Assembly (NCBI GenBank): GCA_016874755.1 | Contig: VGTH01000006.1 | Coordinates: 62,001 to 126,000 of the forward strand | DNA: 64,000 nucleotides | Direction: 5' to 3' | From: Deltaproteobacteria bacterium | GTDB lineage: Bacteria > Desulfobacterota > Binatia > UBA9968 | Shown here: positions 5,803 through 60,188 of the stretch, one piece after another | Numbering within the stretch: position 1 is the stretch's first letter | How the letters are laid out: each line of letters begins with the position of its first letter | Position numbers and translations under genes: made by a program | Notes under the pieces: model-generated | What the model was told of the DNA's origin: nothing | Seen by the model: only the letters and a program-made list of their open reading frames with translations | Database searches by the model: none

Positions 5803-5896
5803 GTAGGGTGCGCCGTGCGCACCACTTCCGGAAACGGTGCACATGGCGCACCTACTGCCTCCGTCAGCCCTCGGGCGTGATGAATCACGCCCCTAC
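5803..5896. repeat. Two adjacent palindromic intergenic repeats
   Basis: Positions 5803-5855 are a GTAGGGTGCGCC palindrome (gtagggtgcgccgtgcgcac ... gcgcacctac). Positions 5872-5896 are a second hairpin, cgggcgtgatgaatcacgcccctac, of the NNGCCCCTAC class seen elsewhere in the window. They fill the gap between two minus-strand genes. Confidence 0.75.
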
Positions 5897-5935
5897 ACCG
5901 AATGCCCTTTGCGCTTTTTGCGGTTAACTCTTAGC

Positions 5936-7456
5936 TCAGTGAGCCGCTACGAACATCTCACGCACTTTGACCTTGTTCACCTTGCCGACCTCGGTGTGCG
6001 GCAGCGACTCGACGAAATCCACTGTCTTTGGAACTTTGTAGGCGGACAATTTGTCTTTACAGTAGCTCAACAGCTCAGCGCTTTGCATTTTAGCGCCGGG
6101 CTTGAGCACGATGATCGCCTTTAACGCTTCGCCCCACTGCGGATCGGGCACACCTATCACAGCGGCTTCAAGCACGTCGGGGTGGCTATAGATCACGCTC
6201 TCGATTTCCAAGGGGTAGATGCTGATGCCGCCGCTCTTGACCATGTCTTTTTTTCGGCCGGAGACAAACAAGTAGCCTTCTTCGTCAAAGTAGCCCAGAT
6301 CGCCGGTGTAGAACCAGCCGTCGCGAAAGGAGGCGTTGGTGGCATCGGGATTCTTGTAGTAGCCGTGGGTCGCCAACGGGCTCTGGCAGATGATCTCGCC
6401 CACCTCGCCCACTCTCACTGGCATGCCGGCGTCGTCAACGACGCGCAAATCGACGCACCAGACAGGGCGGCCGGCGGAGTTGGCTTTCTCGGCGGCATCG
6501 CCAGGCTTGGAGATCGCCATCTGACCGGAATCCGTCGAAGCATAAGTACGATAGACATTGGGCGTCAAATTTTTCTTGAGCGATTCCAAGATTGCCGGAT
6601 GGACTTTGCCGCCGGTGATCGCTAGACAGCGCAACGAGCTGGTGTCGTATTTCTTCGATTCCAGCACATGCAGCATGCGCTCGCACATGACCGGCACGGC
6701 GCCGACGTAGGTGACTTTTTCCCGCTCTATGGTCTTCAGCACTTCTTCGGCGTCGAAGCGCTCGTGCAAGATCATCGTACCGCCGTAGTAGATGATGCCC
6801 AGAGTAAATGAACGACCCGCATTGAAATAAATCGGCGAAGATAGAATCGCCTTATCGTGGGCGCCGAGCCCTTTTTCGATGGCGTTATTAATGCAATGAA
6901 ATACAAACGTCCGCTGCGTCGCCAGACAGCCTTTGGGAAAGCCGGTGGTGCCGGAGGTTAACAGAATCGCGAAGGGATCGTCTTCGCTTACGTGAATATC
7001 TGGCTCCTCCGAACTTTGCCCATTCAGCAAGCCGCCGTAGCTCAAGTCCCCTGAGAGCGAAACTGATTTGACGTCGGCAAGATTCTTAAGCTTCTTGGCG
7101 TTCTCGAACTCCTGAACACAGTCTTCTTGAAGAATGATAAACTTGGGCTCCAGCGCGGCAATCGTCGAGCCCATCTCCAGCGCTTTCCATTTCACATCGA
7201 GCGGGATGGCCAACGCGCCGATTTTTGCCGTCGCGAAAACGATCTCCAGATGCTCGATCCGATTGCCCACCGACAACGCCACGCCATCACCGCGTTTGAC
7301 GCCGATCGATAATAAACCGCGCGCAAGCTGATTCACCCGCGCGTTCAAATCAGCATAGCTGATCTCGCGAAAGCGATCCTTCGCCGCGATCTTAACCGGA
7401 AATTTCCAGGCGTTACGGCGCAAGCCGTCGCCCATTAGCATTGGTACGAAATTCAT
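5936..7456 (-). CDS. Acyl-CoA synthetase (class I adenylate-forming, FadD-like)
   Basis: A 506-residue ligase that activates a carboxylic acid through an acyl-adenylate and transfers it to CoA. It carries the P-loop LTSGTTGFPKG at residues 166-176, a motif A5-like stretch YRTYASTDSGQ, the A7/A8 block GWFYTGDLGYFDEEGY with RKKDMVKSGG, and a C-terminal lysine region HTEVGKVNKVKVRE. Length and domain order fit long-chain or aromatic acyl-CoA synthetases. It heads a minus-strand CoA cluster with two enoyl-CoA hydratases, a thiolase-fold/DUF35 pair and two acyl-CoA dehydrogenases. The acid substrate is not predictable; context suggests a branched, side-chain-like or aromatic acid. Confidence 0.92.
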   Translation of the reverse strand: MNFVPMLMGDGLRRNAWKFPVKIAAKDRFREISYADLNARVNQLARGLLSIGVKRGDGVALSVGNRIEHLEIVFATAKIGALAIPLDVKWKALEMGSTIAALEPKFIILQEDCVQEFENAKKLKNLADVKSVSLSGDLSYGGLLNGQSSEEPDIHVSEDDPFAILLTSGTTGFPKGCLATQRTFVFHCINNAIEKGLGAHDKAILSSPIYFNAGRSFTLGIIYYGGTMILHERFDAEEVLKTIEREKVTYVGAVPVMCERMLHVLESKKYDTSSLRCLAITGGKVHPAILESLKKNLTPNVYRTYASTDSGQMAISKPGDAAEKANSAGRPVWCVDLRVVDDAGMPVRVGEVGEIICQSPLATHGYYKNPDATNASFRDGWFYTGDLGYFDEEGYLFVSGRKKDMVKSGGISIYPLEIESVIYSHPDVLEAAVIGVPDPQWGEALKAIIVLKPGAKMQSAELLSYCKDKLSAYKVPKTVDFVESLPHTEVGKVNKVKVREMFVAAH

Positions 7457-51568: not shown

Positions 51569-51641
51569 AACGGACTGCTTAAACTAGTGATTGACTCGGC
51601 TCGACCGAACCGATAATCACGCAGTTCGGAGGTATTCGCCC

Positions 51642-52664
51642 ATGAGAAAAGGTTTGCGGCTCTCCCTCTTAATCGCCGGACTGCTGCAGGGCTCGCATCT
51701 GCTGGCCGACGACTTCTACAAGGGAAAGACCGTCCGCGTCATCGTCGGCGGTACCGCCGGCGGCGGATTCGATGTCTATACCCGAGCGATGACGCGCCAC
51801 ATGGGTAAGCACATCCCCGGCAACCCCAGCTTCATCGTCGAGAACATGACTGGCGCGGCAACGCGGATCGCAGCGAAATATATTCACAGCGCGGCGCGGC
51901 CAGACGGGCTCACCTTCGGGATCATCAACGGCTATCTGATTTTGAACCAGGTGCTCGATCCCAAGCGCTTCGATTTCGACACGCGCCAATACGAATACCT
52001 TGGCGTGCCGGTGCAGGACAACGTCGCGTGCGTTTTGCGCAAGGAGACCGGCATCACCAACGTCGAGCAATGGATGGGGGCAAAAACTCCCGTTAAAATG
52101 GGCGGCCTCGGGCCGGGCAACAGCACCAGCGACGCCGTGCGCATCGTCAAGGAGACGTTGAATCTGCCTATTCAATTGGTCGAAGGCTACAAAGGCACGG
52201 CGGATGTGCGCCTGGCCGCCGACGCCGGCGAGCTGGGCGGCGCCTGTTGGGCGTGGGAGTCGATCCGCGCCACTTGGACCAAGGCACTCCAGTTAGGTGA
52301 AGTGACACCGATCTTGCAGATCCCGCCGAAGAAACAGCCAGACTTGCAGCATGTGCCGCTCGCCCTCGACTTGGCTAAAACCGAAGACGCCAAACAGATC
52401 ATCCGCGCCGGCGGCATCGTGCCGAGCGCCATCACCCGCGTCTACGTCATTCCGCCTAAAACACCCAAAGCCCGCGTCGAGATTTTGCGCAACGCCTTCG
52501 CCGCCACATTGAAAGATTCCGCCTTCCTCGTCGAAGCAAAAAAAGGCGGCCTGGAAGTCAATCCTCTGGGCGGTGAGGAAGTGAAAAAGACCGTCGACAG
52601 CCTGTTTGCGCTCAATCCACAGACCATCGCCAAGCTGGCGAATATTCTGGCGCCCAAACAATAG
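51642..52664 (+). CDS. TctC-type binding protein (GGFDxY type)
   Basis: 340 residues from ATG 51642 after CGGAGG. Signal peptide MRKGLRLSLLIAGLLQGSHL. Ligand loop GGTAGGGFDVYTRAMTRHM and SFIVENMTGAATRIAAKYI. The second domain has MGGLGPGNSTSDAVRIVKET in place of the array's KCGxTGT, so the Cys pair is missing. Very similar to the gene at 53910-54920, with an inverted third copy (52748-53785) between them. No membrane subunits nearby. Confidence 0.88.
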   Translation: MRKGLRLSLLIAGLLQGSHLLADDFYKGKTVRVIVGGTAGGGFDVYTRAMTRHMGKHIPGNPSFIVENMTGAATRIAAKYIHSAARPDGLTFGIINGYLILNQVLDPKRFDFDTRQYEYLGVPVQDNVACVLRKETGITNVEQWMGAKTPVKMGGLGPGNSTSDAVRIVKETLNLPIQLVEGYKGTADVRLAADAGELGGACWAWESIRATWTKALQLGEVTPILQIPPKKQPDLQHVPLALDLAKTEDAKQIIRAGGIVPSAITRVYVIPPKTPKARVEILRNAFAATLKDSAFLVEAKKGGLEVNPLGGEEVKKTVDSLFALNPQTIAKLANILAPKQ

Positions 52665-52675
52665 AAGATCGTAAG

Positions 52676-52742
52676 GGATGGAGGGTAAGGGGTAAGGCGT
52701 TTCGAATCTGAAACCTTCACCCTTTACACCTCACCCCTGACG
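52676..52742. repeat. GGGTAAGGGG inverted repeat
   Basis: gggtaaggggtaaggcgttt faces ttcaccctttacacctcacc, giving a hairpin of about 60 bases between the converging tctC-type genes. Related to the heptamer tract at 41883-41928. Confidence 0.7.
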
Positions 52743-52747
52743 TCTCT

Positions 52748-53785
52748 TTATCTTAATGTTTCCTTCAACTTCGCCACTACCGGCGCCGGCGTGGAGAACA
52801 TTCTTTCGATGGCGCTGGCGATCTCTTCGCCGGATGCCGAGGCGATTTCCAGGTTGGCTTTGTTGGCGTCATTCAACAGGTCGGGATCTTTGACCGCCTG
52901 CGCCAGCGCGCGGCGCAGCACTTGCACGCGCTCTTTCGGTGTGTTCGGCGGCAGCGAGTAACCATACGTGATCGCGCCGGGTTGATGCACGCCGGCTTCG
53001 ATCAGTTGCTTGGCTTCGGAGCTTCTGGCAAAGTTAATCGTCAGCGGCACCTTAGGCAGATCGGCGTGGGCTTTCGGCGCGCTCTGAAGCATGATCACGG
53101 CTTGGCCTGACTCCACGGCGCGGCGCCAGGTCGACTTCACCGAAACCCAAGAAAATCCGCACAGCCCGTCCATCTCACCCGACTCGACGGCCACGCGCAT
53201 GTCGGCGGTGCCCTTGTAGCCGGTGACCAGACGCATCGGCAAACCGATCGCTTCTTTCAACACCTTCGCTACATCGTCGGTGGTGGAACCCGGCGCGCTG
53301 CCGGCGAGCTTGAGCGGCGTCTTCGACGCGAGCCACTGCTCGGCGTTGGCGATGCCGGTGCGCTGGTGCAGCACGCACAGATCATGGTTGTAACCGGGCG
53401 CGCCGATCCACTCCATCTTGCGCGCGTCGAAGTTGATCCCCTGGGCGCCGACCAGCTGACCGAGGATCTGGTTGCCATTGAACGCGCCGATGGTGAGCCC
53501 GTCCGGTTTAGCAACGCGATAAATATGATTGGCGCTGATCAAACTCCCCGCGCCCGGCATGTTGTCGACGACGATTGACGGATTGCCTGGTATGTACTTG
53601 CCCATGTAGCGCGCGACTGTGCGCGCGAAGGTGTCGAAGCCGCCGCCGGCTGAGAAGCCGACAACGATGCGAATCACCTTGCCACGGTAGAAATCCTCGC
53701 CGCTCGATGCCGCAAAGATTGCTTTTGGAATACCCAAGACCAAAACCAGAAACACAGCGCTTGCGATAGTTAGTCTCTGTTCCAT
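52748..53785 (-). CDS. TctC-type binding protein (GGFDTF type)
   Basis: 345 residues; GGGAGGCGGC precedes ATG 53785. Signal segment MEQRLTIASAVFLVLVLGIP. Ligand loop GFSAGGGFDTFARTVARYM; IVVDNMPGAGSLISANHIY. Second domain LKLAGSAPGSTTDDVAKVLK. It belongs with the two plus-strand neighbours in the loop pattern, but reads on the opposite strand, so the trio has been rearranged by an inversion or inserted separately. Confidence 0.88.
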   Translation of the reverse strand: MEQRLTIASAVFLVLVLGIPKAIFAASSGEDFYRGKVIRIVVGFSAGGGFDTFARTVARYMGKYIPGNPSIVVDNMPGAGSLISANHIYRVAKPDGLTIGAFNGNQILGQLVGAQGINFDARKMEWIGAPGYNHDLCVLHQRTGIANAEQWLASKTPLKLAGSAPGSTTDDVAKVLKEAIGLPMRLVTGYKGTADMRVAVESGEMDGLCGFSWVSVKSTWRRAVESGQAVIMLQSAPKAHADLPKVPLTINFARSSEAKQLIEAGVHQPGAITYGYSLPPNTPKERVQVLRRALAQAVKDPDLLNDANKANLEIASASGEEIASAIERMFSTPAPVVAKLKETLR

Positions 53786-53859
53786 GCCGCCTCCCTTTGG
53801 CTACCCCACTTAACCAAGAGCCGATGTCTCGTCAACCGCTGATTTCAAGCGATTGGACG

Positions 53860-53886
53860 TTGACAAGTAAGCCATTACCACATAAT
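53860..53886 (+). promoter_or_regulatory. Possible sigma-70-type promoter
   Basis: TTGACA at 53860-53865 and CATAAT at 53881-53886, with a 15-base spacer, shorter than the 17 usual. It lies just upstream of the ATG 53910 gene, in the divergent 124-bp gap. Pattern only; no start-site data. Confidence 0.3.
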
Positions 53887-53909
53887 CACCAAAACTCGGA
53901 GGAGCTGCG

Positions 53910-54920
53910 ATGAAGTTTCTCGTGCTAGGCTTAGTTATCCTTCTATCCGCTGCTGCTGCGTCTGCTCAGGACTTTTACCGCGGCAAAGTCATCCGCGTCA
54001 TCGTCGGCGGTAGCCCGGGCGGGGGCTTCGATATCTACACCCGCGCCATGGCGCGCCACATGGGCAAGCACATTCCCGGCAATCCATCGCTGATCGTCGA
54101 GAACATGACCGGCGCGGGCACATTCATCGCGGCGAAATATGTCCATAGCAGCGCCAAACCCGACGGCTTGTCGATCGGCATGTTTAACGGCGGGCTGATT
54201 TTAGGGCGCGTGCTCGGCATGAAGGGAATCGACATCGACATGCGCGAGCTGGAATACCTCGGCGTGCCGGTGCAGGACAACCCGGTCTGCGCCGTGAGCA
54301 AGGCGAGCGGCGTCACCCACTTCGAACAATGGGCGGCATCGAAGGCACCGATCAAGCTCGGTGGCCTAAGCCCCGGCAACAGCACGAGCGACGTAGCGCG
54401 CATTATTCAAAGCGCGCTGAATCTGCCGGTGCAGCTTGTCGAGGGATACAAGGGCACTAACGAGATCCGCCTCGCCACCGACGCGGGCGAGTTGCACGGC
54501 GCTTGTTGGGCTTGGGAAACATTAAAAACCGCTTGGAGCAAAGCCCTCGGATCCGGCGACATGAATGTGGTCCTGCAGGTTACGGCGAAAAAACTTCCCG
54601 AGCTGCCCAACGCGCCCTTGGCACTCGATCTGGCAAAGAGCGAAGAAGCTAAACTCTTACTGCGCGCTGGCGCCATCGATCCGGCGGCGATCGTGCGCGT
54701 CTACGTGACCACGCCAAAGATTCCGCGTGATCGACTGCAGATCCTGCGCACAGCGTTCGCCAAGACGTTGACGGATGCGGACTTTGTCGGCGAGGCAAAG
54801 AAAGCCAATCTCGACATCAATCCACTGACCGGCGAAGAAGTGAAAAAGCTGGTCGACGATCTTTTCAAACTTCCAACGCCTTCAAAAAATAAGTTGATCC
54901 AAACGCTAATCCCCAAATAA
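53910..54920 (+). CDS. TctC-type binding protein (GGFDxY type)
   Basis: 336 residues; CGGAGGAGCTGCG precedes ATG 53910. Signal peptide MKFLVLGLVILLSAAAASAQ. Ligand loop GGSPGGGFDIYTRAMARHM and LIVENMTGAGTFIAAKYV. LGGLSPGNSTSDVARIIQSA and ELHGACWAWETLKTAW match the paralogue at 51642-52664 closely. The pair are probably recent duplicates. Substrate unknown. Confidence 0.89.
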   Translation: MKFLVLGLVILLSAAAASAQDFYRGKVIRVIVGGSPGGGFDIYTRAMARHMGKHIPGNPSLIVENMTGAGTFIAAKYVHSSAKPDGLSIGMFNGGLILGRVLGMKGIDIDMRELEYLGVPVQDNPVCAVSKASGVTHFEQWAASKAPIKLGGLSPGNSTSDVARIIQSALNLPVQLVEGYKGTNEIRLATDAGELHGACWAWETLKTAWSKALGSGDMNVVLQVTAKKLPELPNAPLALDLAKSEEAKLLLRAGAIDPAAIVRVYVTTPKIPRDRLQILRTAFAKTLTDADFVGEAKKANLDINPLTGEEVKKLVDDLFKLPTPSKNKLIQTLIPK

Positions 54921-54936
54921 TTGAAACAATCTTTTT

Positions 54937-54991
54937 AGGGTGCGCCGTGCGCATCATCGAACCCGGGGCCGGTGCGCCCGGCGCACCCTAC
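54937..54991. repeat. GTAGGGTGCGCC-family palindrome
   Basis: agggtgcgccgtgcgcatca on the left and ggtgcgcccggcgcacccta on the right. Same family as 4686-4739 and 5803-5855. Confidence 0.8.
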
Positions 54992-55022
54992 GGGCAATGA
55001 ACAAGGACATGGAGAATGACTC

Positions 55023-56033
55023 ATGAATCTTAAACTGCGCGTGCTTGCATTGAGCACTTTATTGGGTCTCGGCCTGACGACAACGCGGCACAACGCCGAA
55101 GCTGCCGAATTGAAGCCGGAGCGCAGCAAACTCGAAGTCGCCATCGCCGCCACCGGGCCGCTCTACCTGCCGCTTTTGCTCGCCGCTGACGCCGGTTACT
55201 TTGACAAGCGGGGTCTAAAGGTAAATTTGACCACGCTCAGCGCTACTGCGTCGGCGCAAGCGCTGCTTTCCGGCACGGTGGACATTTACCAGGGCGGCAC
55301 GGCGACGATACACGCCAACGTCGCCGGCTCCGACTTGATCTACATCGGCGCCGCAGTCGACAAGAGCACACTCGTGCTCTTTGGCCAAAAAGGCATCACC
55401 AAGTTCGAAGACTTGCGAGGCAAAGCAGTGGCGACCACGTCAGTCGGCGCCTTCGGCGAGATCGCCATGCGCAAGTTTGCCAAGGAACGCGGCATGGAGG
55501 TTGGCAAAGACATCAAGCTGCTCTACCACAAGGGACCGCCCGATGCGCTGCAAACGTTCATGCTCAACAACGCCGATGCTTTAATCGTCACGCCGCCGCA
55601 GACCGAGATGGCCAAACAAAAAGGCTACCCAGTGATCATCGATTTTTTTCAACAAGGCCTGAAAATCATCGGCCCCGGCACTGGTGTTGCACGATCCTTC
55701 GTGCAGAAAAATCCCAACACGCTAAAAATCTTTTTGATGGGCTATCTCGACGGCATCAAGCGCGCCATTGACGATCCCCAAGCGGCAAAGCAGGTCGAAT
55801 CGCACTACACCAAAGTCACCGATCCGAAACTTTTGGAGGACAGCTACCAGGAAGGCAAGAAAGTTTGGAACAAGGACATGACCATCGACGCCGACGCGAT
55901 CAAGCTCGTCCTCGAACAATCGACCGTGGCCGGCGCTGCGAATCTCGACCCCAAACGTTTCTTCGACAACACGCTGATCCGAGAAGTGAACCGCGACTAC
56001 GCGTCGAAACTATTTCCGGGGCAGGTGAAGTAA
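55023..56033 (+). CDS. NMT1/SsuA-type ABC substrate-binding protein
   Basis: 336 residues. Signal segment MNLKLRVLALSTLLGLGLTT. Mature SKLEVAIAATGPLYLPLLLA, AGYFDKRGLKVNLTTLSATA and KFEDLRGKAVATTSVGAFGE are of the NMT1/SsuA class. A GGAG precedes ATG 55023. As with the other six of this type here, no ABC permease or ATPase gene is close. Confidence 0.87.
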   Translation: MNLKLRVLALSTLLGLGLTTTRHNAEAAELKPERSKLEVAIAATGPLYLPLLLAADAGYFDKRGLKVNLTTLSATASAQALLSGTVDIYQGGTATIHANVAGSDLIYIGAAVDKSTLVLFGQKGITKFEDLRGKAVATTSVGAFGEIAMRKFAKERGMEVGKDIKLLYHKGPPDALQTFMLNNADALIVTPPQTEMAKQKGYPVIIDFFQQGLKIIGPGTGVARSFVQKNPNTLKIFLMGYLDGIKRAIDDPQAAKQVESHYTKVTDPKLLEDSYQEGKKVWNKDMTIDADAIKLVLEQSTVAGAANLDPKRFFDNTLIREVNRDYASKLFPGQVK

Positions 56034-59082: not shown

Positions 59083-59811
59083 CTACTTCGACTTGGCGGC
59101 AAAGACGTTTTTGTAGTCCGCCCAGGCCTGCGGCCCGGCGCGATCGAAGACTTTGTCGCGCAGCCCGCCGGCGTATTCGGCTGGAATGTAGTTGATCTTT
59201 TCCGTGTAGGAAGGCTTCAAGCGCATCCCCTTGGCCTCGAACTCGTCGGCCAATTTGAGATTGGCGAGCACCGAGGCGAGCTCCGCATGATCTGTCCACA
59301 TGGCTTTGTAGGCGATCTTGCCGTGCTTATCGACGATATAAATCATATTGGGCAAAGAGCCGTAGGCCCGATGCACCGGGCCGTCGAGATCGTCAACCAA
59401 CAGGACAGATTCAATACCGTCTTGCTGTCGGCAATCGCGGGCAAATTTTAGCTTTTGCTCCCAGCTCCTGTGCGCGCCATAGTTTTCTCCTGGATGCGGC
59501 TCGCGCACGTAGATCGTGAAAAATTCAAATCCCCTCTCGCGGTATTGCGCATATAGCTTGTTCAAGGGCGAGACCTCGCCCACAAACGGCGGTCAGGTAA
59601 TACTGCCAAATTCCAGCAGCAGATGTTTTCGGCCCCGGAATGCAGACAGACGAACCTTCTCGCCGTCAACCGTAGGCAGCTCAAAATCTGGCGCATCCTC
59701 ACCGGCGCGCAAAGCGGCCTTAAACTCGCCCGACATACCGGCGCTCTCAGAACGGGAAAACGCTTCGTAGTTGTAGCTATCGGAAATGTTTCTGCTCTCC
59801 GGTTTAGCCAT
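59083..59811 (-). CDS. Deiodinase-like redoxin, predicted selenoprotein (Sec73, TGA)
   Basis: A 242-residue protein if the TGA at 59595-59593 is read as selenocysteine. Two open frames separated by only that codon join perfectly: HLLLEFGSIT-U-PPFVGEVSPLNKLY. The FGSxTUPPF motif is that of iodothyronine deiodinase-like redoxins, where Sec is the redox centre. Downstream FFTIYVREPHPGENYG keeps the Glu/His region of the deiodinases, and the thioredoxin fold ends PNMIYIVDKHGKIAYK. ATG 59811 has GGAGG upstream. A SECIS-like hairpin follows at 59566-59581. A simple nonsense mutation is the alternative, but the residues on both sides are fully conserved. No selA, selB, selC or selD lies in the window. 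Confidence 0.86.
59566..59581 (-). promoter_or_regulatory. Bacterial SECIS-like hairpin
   Basis: In mRNA sense, GGGCGAGGUCUCGCCC is a perfect hairpin: stem GGGCGA/UCGCCC, with apex AGGUCU when the closing A-U pair is counted. It begins 12 bases after the UGA codon. E. coli fdhF carries the same AGGUCU apex. Position, size and the loop G-U pair fit a bacterial selenocysteine insertion element. No SelB binding data. Confidence 0.8.
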
Positions 59812-59905
59812 CGTCGGTGGTCCTCCTATACGGCTAGTAACACATCTCGCCAAGGCGGATTTACCCCGGCTATACCTCAATTTGTTTTCTATAGAATCTC
59901 AATTC

Positions 59906-60123
59906 TCACCGAACCTCGGCGCGGATCGCTGATTTAGCGGTCTCCCAATCGGTGAAATGACCTTTCCCTCTGCGATCTTATGCCGGCGCTCTTCGAGGGC
60001 GTCTCTGTGCCACTCCGGTGACTCGAAGGAATCCGGAGAGCGAGTAAGCTCTTCCCAGAATAATTCCATCGCAGCAAGCTTTTCCTGCTGGGTCATGTCA
60101 TTAAGAGGAAAGTTAACTGACAT
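59906..60123 (-). pseudogene. Addiction-module antitoxin-like gene (PF09720 type), frameshifted
   Basis: From ATG 60123, FPLNDMTQQEKLAAMELFWE and ESPEWHRDALEERRHKIAEG match the small RelB-like addiction-module protein family. After EG the frame changes: the other frame reads KGHFTDWETAKSAIRAEVR and stops at 59906, the expected family end. One A seems lost from an AAA run near 59960. In the present frame it reads to 59899 with an unrelated tail. No RelE/ParE-type toxin gene is adjacent, so it is an orphan. Confidence 0.7.
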
Positions 60124-60188
60124 AGCCGAATTATATACCTCAACGCACTCACGACAATTTTGCACCATAACCCATTCGCTTCAACCGT

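Follow-up and report, generated by a model that had tools for sequence, protein, structure and literature searches.

The minus strand of the window (the whole 64,000-nucleotide stretch of DNA analysed here) carries two reading frames separated only by a TGA codon, raising the question as to whether this is a gene broken by a stop codon or an intact gene in which the TGA is read as selenocysteine (Sec), and, if the latter, what kind of enzyme it encodes.

A reading frame that continues through a TGA

A plain list of open reading frames cuts this gene (the study gene) into ORFs of 95 and 166 aa. The original prediction joined the two across a TGA at 59595-59593 as FGSIT-U-PPFVGEV, and both the join and the coordinates proved right (Table 1): the frame opens with an ATG at 59811, its only in-frame TGA is codon 73, its TAG ends at 59083, and the motif around the TGA reads FGSIT-U-PPF. 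Both halves are homologous to relatives, with 66-76% identity to eight of the 12 relatives aligned, and because an AGGAGG precedes the ATG the upstream half has its own start signal. A promoter scan, with two matches found where 0.7 are expected, gave one 10-of-12 match at 60157-60130, within the upstream gene, which we set aside.

Table 1. Features of the study gene and the host Sec genes; positions are those of the window unless a contig is named.
Feature	Position	Strand	Description	Basis
Deiodinase-like selenoprotein gene (predicted)	59083..59811	-	242 codons, TGA read as Sec, plus TAG stop	Translation; homology of both halves
In-frame TGA, putative Sec73 codon	59593..59595	-		Column is TGA in 25/25 TGA-bearing class matches
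AGGAGG ribosome-binding site	59822..59827	-	10 nt 5′ of ATG	Sequence
Putative bacterial SECIS hairpin	59566..59581	-	6-bp stem, GGUC loop at 59575-59572	Covariation, frozen codons, bSECIS criteria
Codons 101-114	59470..59511	-	Tyr101, Glu104, His106, Pro107, His114; deiodinase proton-relay positions, substrate loop absent from 107 to 114	Alignment to mouse DIO3
Cys127 codon	59431..59433	-	Only cysteine	Invariant in 11/11 distinct clade A genes
selA, selB, selD in a row	G000 contig 16, 6375-10684 (L097)	-		Profile matches

The selenocysteine column in relatives

We searched 148 class genomes and, with E 1e-20 as the threshold, found matches at 35 places in 27 of them; 25 of the places (in 22 genomes) contain one TGA and ten contain none. 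In each of the 25 the TGA falls at the Sec column. We refer to the study gene's own clade as A (11 distinct genes), to its nearest UPPF paralogues as B, to UPPF forms with a deiodinase loop as C, and to UPYC forms as D. At the ten places without a TGA the column holds TGG once (L090:2898-3620), AGC or AGT five times, and TGT or TGC twice; in the remaining two the region is disrupted (L095) or the match is a fragment that does not reach the column. The Cys codons belong to two distant but intact relatives, L094 (TGT) and L046 (TGC), with 32% identity to the study protein, and the Trp (TGG) paralogue is nested among TGA genes in the tree.

This distribution bears directly on one alternative, namely a broken gene whose TGA either truly ends translation or was introduced in assembly. 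The group does hold broken or partial paralogues (L095 and L090:771-1088), but the recurrence of TGA at one column in 25 matches from 22 genomes, the homology on either side of it, and the SECIS constraint and host Sec machinery described below make a broken gene exceedingly improbable.

The five genes with Ser (AGC/AGT) at the Sec column (L092:6643-7353, L093:6230-6940, L043, L044 and L045) have a Cys three residues on (TSPMC) and keep the relay motif described below. One region, L090:1-4600 (G012 contig 307, the same contig as L023), holds four deiodinase-like genes or pieces on one strand, in the order UPPF (TGA), C-terminal fragment, TGG form and UPYC (TGA) form; an NMT1-like gene and further ORFs separate them. 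In a sample of the phylum, three of 297 genomes matched at E 1e-30 or better, the host genome included, and the other two matches have a TGA, the same hairpin register and the motif UPAA. Viral contigs gave one weak partial match only, of 36 residues, and plasmids gave five records, none above 63% coverage, the best being a Mycolicibacterium 'deiodinase-like protein'.

A hairpin downstream of the UGA

A perfect hairpin with the apex of E. coli fdhF had been predicted 3′ of the UGA, and it is present, with 11 bases between UGA and stem and 17 nt between UGA and loop; its apex equals that of fdhF, for which we used a 41-nt piece that matched 5368 of 5426 E. coli genomes, the three rows listed being annotated fdhF. 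The criteria for bacterial SECIS elements (bSECIS) given in the available portion of PMC13188914 are a loop of 3-9 nt, a stem of 4-16 bp, a G in the first two loop bases, a spacing of 16-37 nt and an energy of at most -7.5 kcal/mol, and the study hairpin has a loop of 4, a stem of 6, GG, a spacing of 17 nt and -10.9 kcal/mol (nt 10-36). An Rfam scan of the 64-kb window gave no match at the gathering score.

Taken alone, the hairpin of the study gene could be chance. Among 20,000 synonymous resamples of the gene, 6604 (33%) have the same stem length somewhere and 1896 (9.5%) the same energy, about 7% reach it at the fixed register, and the folding z-score is -1.13; we therefore rejected its significance in this one gene as proof. 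The reading of the hairpin as a Sec signal, which the single gene does not carry beyond chance, is nonetheless supported by covariation at a fixed register across relatives. The comparison covered 22 distinct TGA genes, obtained from 30 rows by merging those with identical 34-mers; several of the 22 are still near-identical kin. In every gene except the planctomycete L025, a stem of no fewer than 4 pairs carries a loop that begins with a G exactly at nt 21. At this register 19 of the 22 genes form 5 pairs or more, as against 1, 3, 2 and 5 at registers shifted by -4 to -1 and 0, 0, 0 and 2 at +1 to +4; L048 and L051 have only 4 pairs at the nt-21 register. Hairpin pairs 1-3 are paired in 21/21 genes with two to three pair types each, reflecting compensatory changes. 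The sequences themselves differ, as seen from one member each of clade A (GGGCGA-GGUC-UCGCCC), clade B (GUGGGGGA-GGU-UCCCCCAC), clade C (GUGCCCA-GGC-UGGGCAC), clade D (GCGCUGGC-GGC-GCCGGCGC) and the distant L101/L102 (CGGCUC-GGUC-GAGCCG), in all of which the loop starts at nt 21.

Within clade A, the six codons of the hairpin (VGEVSP) are invariant (6/6) in the 11 genes, whereas overall this holds for just 19 of the 125 codon columns whose amino acid is invariant (hypergeometric 5.8e-6, ignoring relatedness). At the nt-21 register a G-starting stem is absent from all five Ser paralogues and from both intact Cys paralogues, and the Trp paralogue retains a hairpin shifted by one base, as expected from a recent TGA-to-TGG change. 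We find the comparison across relatives convincing, chance being a poor explanation of the hairpin there.

Selenocysteine-decoding genes of the host

The original prediction also supposed that the host has a Sec system. Its genome (G000; 5.56 Mb, 99.55% complete) contains all four components above cut-off: a tRNA-Sec on contig 40 (75.9 bits, the cut-off being 47; ARAGORN agrees and gives the anticodon TCA), selB (411 bits, the match spanning 2-580 of 581 model positions), selA (600 bits by profile search) and selD (382 bits), the last with its own in-frame TGA after VKAAG. Neither selB nor tRNA-Sec, whose absence from the host would have told against a selenoprotein, is missing. In 14 control genomes the cut-off was passed by tRNA-Sec in five, selB in two, selA in one and selD in two, and the tRNA-Sec model gives weak 40-47-bit matches in every genome searched, the controls included.

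The presence of tRNA-Sec follows that of the TGA homologues, being above cut-off in 21 of the 22 class genomes that have one (15/15 in one set, 6/7 in the other). The exception, G102 (96% complete, in 1200 contigs), has a TGA homologue and no tRNA-Sec above cut-off, possibly through an incomplete assembly or a misplaced contig. Among 39 genomes, 15 have both, 13 tRNA-Sec only, 11 neither, and none a TGA homologue only (Fisher 0.0024, ignoring relatedness and completeness); one of the 28 above the tRNA-Sec cut-off is G033, whose match, at 48.7 bits, may not be a genuine tRNA-Sec. Two of the 11 genomes with neither (G002 and G005) carry Ser forms.

Two further frames of the host, on contig 35 (L098, ~5850-6400) and contig 8 (L099, ~150-720), resemble peroxiredoxins and contain an in-frame TGA preceded by TPT (TPT-TGA, TxxU); both are probably Sec peroxiredoxins. 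One has 7 pairs at nt 22 and the other at most 4 pairs, and in selD 5 pairs carry a CCG loop at nt 19; none of the three shares the register of the study gene.

With the TGA column, the fixed-register SECIS, the frozen codons and the Sec machinery all pointing the same way, the proposal that this is a translated selenoprotein is well supported by the genomic comparisons. SelB would bind the hairpin behind the UGA and deliver Sec-tRNA, so that residue 73 would be selenocysteine, and we consider it highly probable that the study gene encodes a selenoenzyme of thioredoxin/peroxiredoxin fold.

A deiodinase-like protein without the substrate loop

The read-through protein passes the Pfam cut-offs for AhpC-TSA (PF00578; 59.3 bits versus 26), T4_deiodinase (PF00837; 56.4 versus 27) and Redoxin (52.8 bits), and lies below the gathering score for glutathione peroxidase (PF00255; 13.2 versus 27 bits). 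Among solved structures its closest sequence match is mouse DIO3 (E 1.3e-13), with FGSITUPPF in the study protein facing FGSCTCPPF in the DIO3 crystal, in which Sec is swapped for Cys. The best NCBIfam match is NF038285 (deiodinase family protein, deiodinase_rel; E 1.6e-28), at 100.2 bits for the study protein and 216.6 for clade C L096, both short of the 250-bit cut-off.

A proton relay of Ser127, Thr129, Tyr157, Glu160, His162 and His182 has been proposed for DIO2 (available portions of PMC11592359 and PMC9141512). Ser70, Thr72, Tyr101, Glu104, His106 and His114 of the study protein align with the relay positions of DIO3, and in an alignment with deiodinase-family proteins and Cys homologues (alignment A2) Thr72, Tyr101, Glu104 and His106 are invariant in 18/18 rows, L094 and L046 having Cys at the Sec column. 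The deiodinase-type E..HP segment predicted to follow the UGA is recovered here as Glu104, His106 and Pro107. The segment from His106 to His114 is nine residues shorter than that of DIO3 and leaves a 12-column gap against clade C, indicating that loop D (the substrate loop, a deiodinase insertion involved in thyronine binding) is missing; clade C and L025 retain a segment of DIO3-like length. The loop Trp of DIO3 is lost too, and its proximal Cys is replaced by Ile71, a position at which DIO2 has Ala (available portion of PMC11592359). The Cys127 column also holds Cys in four clade C rows and L025 (alignment A2) and none in clade B; Cys127 is a possible resolving residue, judging from its conservation. 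Residues 174-242 lie outside the Pfam matches, with about 50 of them having no counterpart in clade C, and by eye the translation has no N-terminal hydrophobic stretch like the membrane anchor of animal deiodinases.

In a tree of rows trimmed to the core (excluding L024, L095, L032, L096 and the fragment L090:771-1088, which were disrupted, duplicated another row or lacked the column), clade C groups with mouse DIO3 (100/97), and the study protein falls opposite them, together with clades B and D, the Ser forms and the Cys forms. The placement of mouse DIO3 rests on long branches, as the tool warned, and on this tree the study protein appears to belong to a loop-less group beside, not inside, the deiodinase clade. 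The description of the protein as deiodinase-like thus holds for the PF00837 match, the TUPPF motif and the relay residues, but is qualified by the missing loop, the position in the tree and the score below the NF038285 cut-off.

The peroxiredoxin catalytic motif is PxxxT/SxxC, and the study protein has SxxU (Ser70-Ile-Thr-Sec73) with Leu66, not Pro, at position -7. A structure model with a pLDDT of 76.9 and low values at residues 2-25 aligns with DsbE (Z 18.1, rmsd 1.5, 137 residues), ResA (Z 17.7, rmsd 1.6, 135 residues), DIO2 (Z 17.3, rmsd 2.6, 157 residues), the 1-Cys peroxiredoxin AhpE (Z 17.3, rmsd 1.7, 141 residues) and DIO3 (Z 16.5, rmsd 4.4, 166 residues). These matches tie across families, so the modelled fold picks none of them.

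An ordinary 1-Sec peroxiredoxin or thioredoxin-like reductase, whose likeness to deiodinases reflects shared ancestry and whose relay is irrelevant to the reaction, would be in keeping with an AhpC-TSA score slightly above that of T4_deiodinase, with DsbE, ResA and AhpE tying with DIO2 in fold, and with the retention of the relay in Ser and Trp paralogues. We regard this explanation as doubtful, since TUPPF and YxxExHP are common to DIO3 and absent from the aligned ResA and 3kcm rows, and since the four relay positions are invariant throughout the alignment.

Genomic neighbourhoods

The flanks of the study gene in clade A say little about function. Pfam identifies four neighbours, namely two amidohydrolases, an NMT1-like binding protein and, upstream, an antitoxin-like gene, and none of them matches a dehalogenation family. 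The gene directly upstream (59899-60168, minus strand, 89 aa) matches Unstab_antitox (PF09720), and by eye several genes at 51591-56033 look like tripartite-type and NMT1-like periplasmic binding proteins.

Clade B paralogues lie in or near pentose-phosphate genes in three of the five genomes that carry one. In G004 transaldolase/PGI comes first, followed by gnd-like, zwf, glk, pgl and lastly the selenoprotein gene (L091), which overlaps pgl (6-phosphogluconolactonase) by ATGA; in G017 the clade B gene follows the pgl ORF by 93 nt, and in G011 it is three ORFs (~3 kb) beyond pgl. The families were assigned by Pfam scan in G004 alone, and in G017 and G011 by BLAST clusters with G004. The contigs of the clade B genes of G142 and G012 (5.2 and 7.5 kb) contain none of these pentose-phosphate genes. 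A clade D (UPYC-type) paralogue in G022 (L095:4199-4915), with its Sec region disrupted or not aligning, is near relatives of zwf, glk and pgl. The clade B neighbourhood suggests an NADPH-dependent thiol supply, a hint that belongs to clade B and not to the study gene's clade A.

Proposed role and alternatives

We propose that the protein is likely a thiol-fed selenoreductase of a small oxidant. Sec73 would be the nucleophile, with Ser70, Thr72, Tyr101, Glu104, His106 and His114 at the deiodinase relay positions, and the pocket, lacking the substrate loop of the deiodinases, should be suited to a smaller molecule. Sec73 would attack a small oxidised substrate to give an Se-OH or Se-X intermediate and would be restored by Cys127 or by cellular thiols. 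The thiol supply hinted at by clade B favours reduction of small oxidants, with dehalogenation second; on balance we take a hydroperoxide or similar electrophile as the most likely substrate, and reductive dehalogenation of a small halogenated compound comes next, at low probability. The relay also persists in the five Ser paralogues and in the Trp paralogue, which have neither Sec nor Cys at the Sec column, so it may not serve Sec chemistry alone.

The protein could instead be a true reductive dehalogenase of small haloaromatics, in which, by the mechanism of deiodinases, Sec73 would take the halogen as Se-X and the relay would pass a proton to the carbon. The protein shares TUPPF and the relay positions with DIO3, and DIO2 and DIO3 are among the structural matches, but the shortened substrate loop with its lost Trp, the failure to reach the NF038285 cut-off, and the lack of a dehalogenation family among the four neighbours scanned render it unlikely. 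A broader and quite improbable reading is that a family without the loop, sister to the thyroid deiodinases, has radiated within the Binatia, giving Sec (UPPF), Sec-Cys (UPYC), Cys, Ser and Trp versions that retain the relay motif and in some cases are tandem paralogues; the family would then be a Sec-based, NADPH-fed reductive dehalogenase or electrophile reductase, and the Ser and Trp versions its non-redox partners. If true, such a radiated family would show deiodinase chemistry without a hormone-binding loop.

A new form of a known group

Bacterial deiodinase-like selenoproteins have been known since 2005, when 4 Sec and 6 Cys forms were described (PMC1088965), followed by 22 Sec and 21 Cys forms in 2008 (PMC2398784); in the available portions of both papers a redox function is only guessed. 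Two reviews give the family motif as UxxC (PMC9312934, PMC13188914), and the available portion of PMC2398784 gives none. The study protein resembles this group (PF00837) in its Sec at the deiodinase position, its bacterial SECIS and its Cys relatives, and differs in being loop-less, in its C-terminal extension of about 50 residues relative to clade C, and in having UPPF with no Cys at +3, as do clades A, B and C, only clade D being UPYC. From the animal deiodinases DIO1-3 (4tr3, 9h48), which take iodine off thyroid hormone and with which it shares the Trx/Prx fold, FGSxTUPPF and the Ser, Thr, Tyr, Glu, His, His relay, it is set apart by the lack of the substrate loop, by Ile71, by a bacterial SECIS inside the coding region, and by an identity of 26% in the structural alignment. 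With AhpE-type 1-Cys peroxiredoxins and ResA/DsbE it shares the core fold (Z 17.3-18.1) and a passed AhpC-TSA cut-off, whereas the deiodinase motif, relay positions and Sec distinguish it from them. Binatia are not named in the available portions of PMC9312934, PMC13188914 and PMC2398784, and among open-licence PMC papers we found no joint mention of 'Binatota' or 'Binatia' with 'selenoprotein'. Because the motif is UPPF and not UxxC, no Binatia selenoprotein is mentioned in these sources, and the NF038285 cut-off is not reached, the loop-less UPPF group is a new form of the known group.

Gene callers that take TGA as a stop split such genes, as the plain ORF list did here, and they are therefore easily lost. 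The clade B paralogues in or near pentose-phosphate genes offer a genomic hint of the electron supply. The group parts the catalytic relay of deiodinases from the hormone-binding loop in nature, and thereby allows the capability of the relay by itself to be tested directly.
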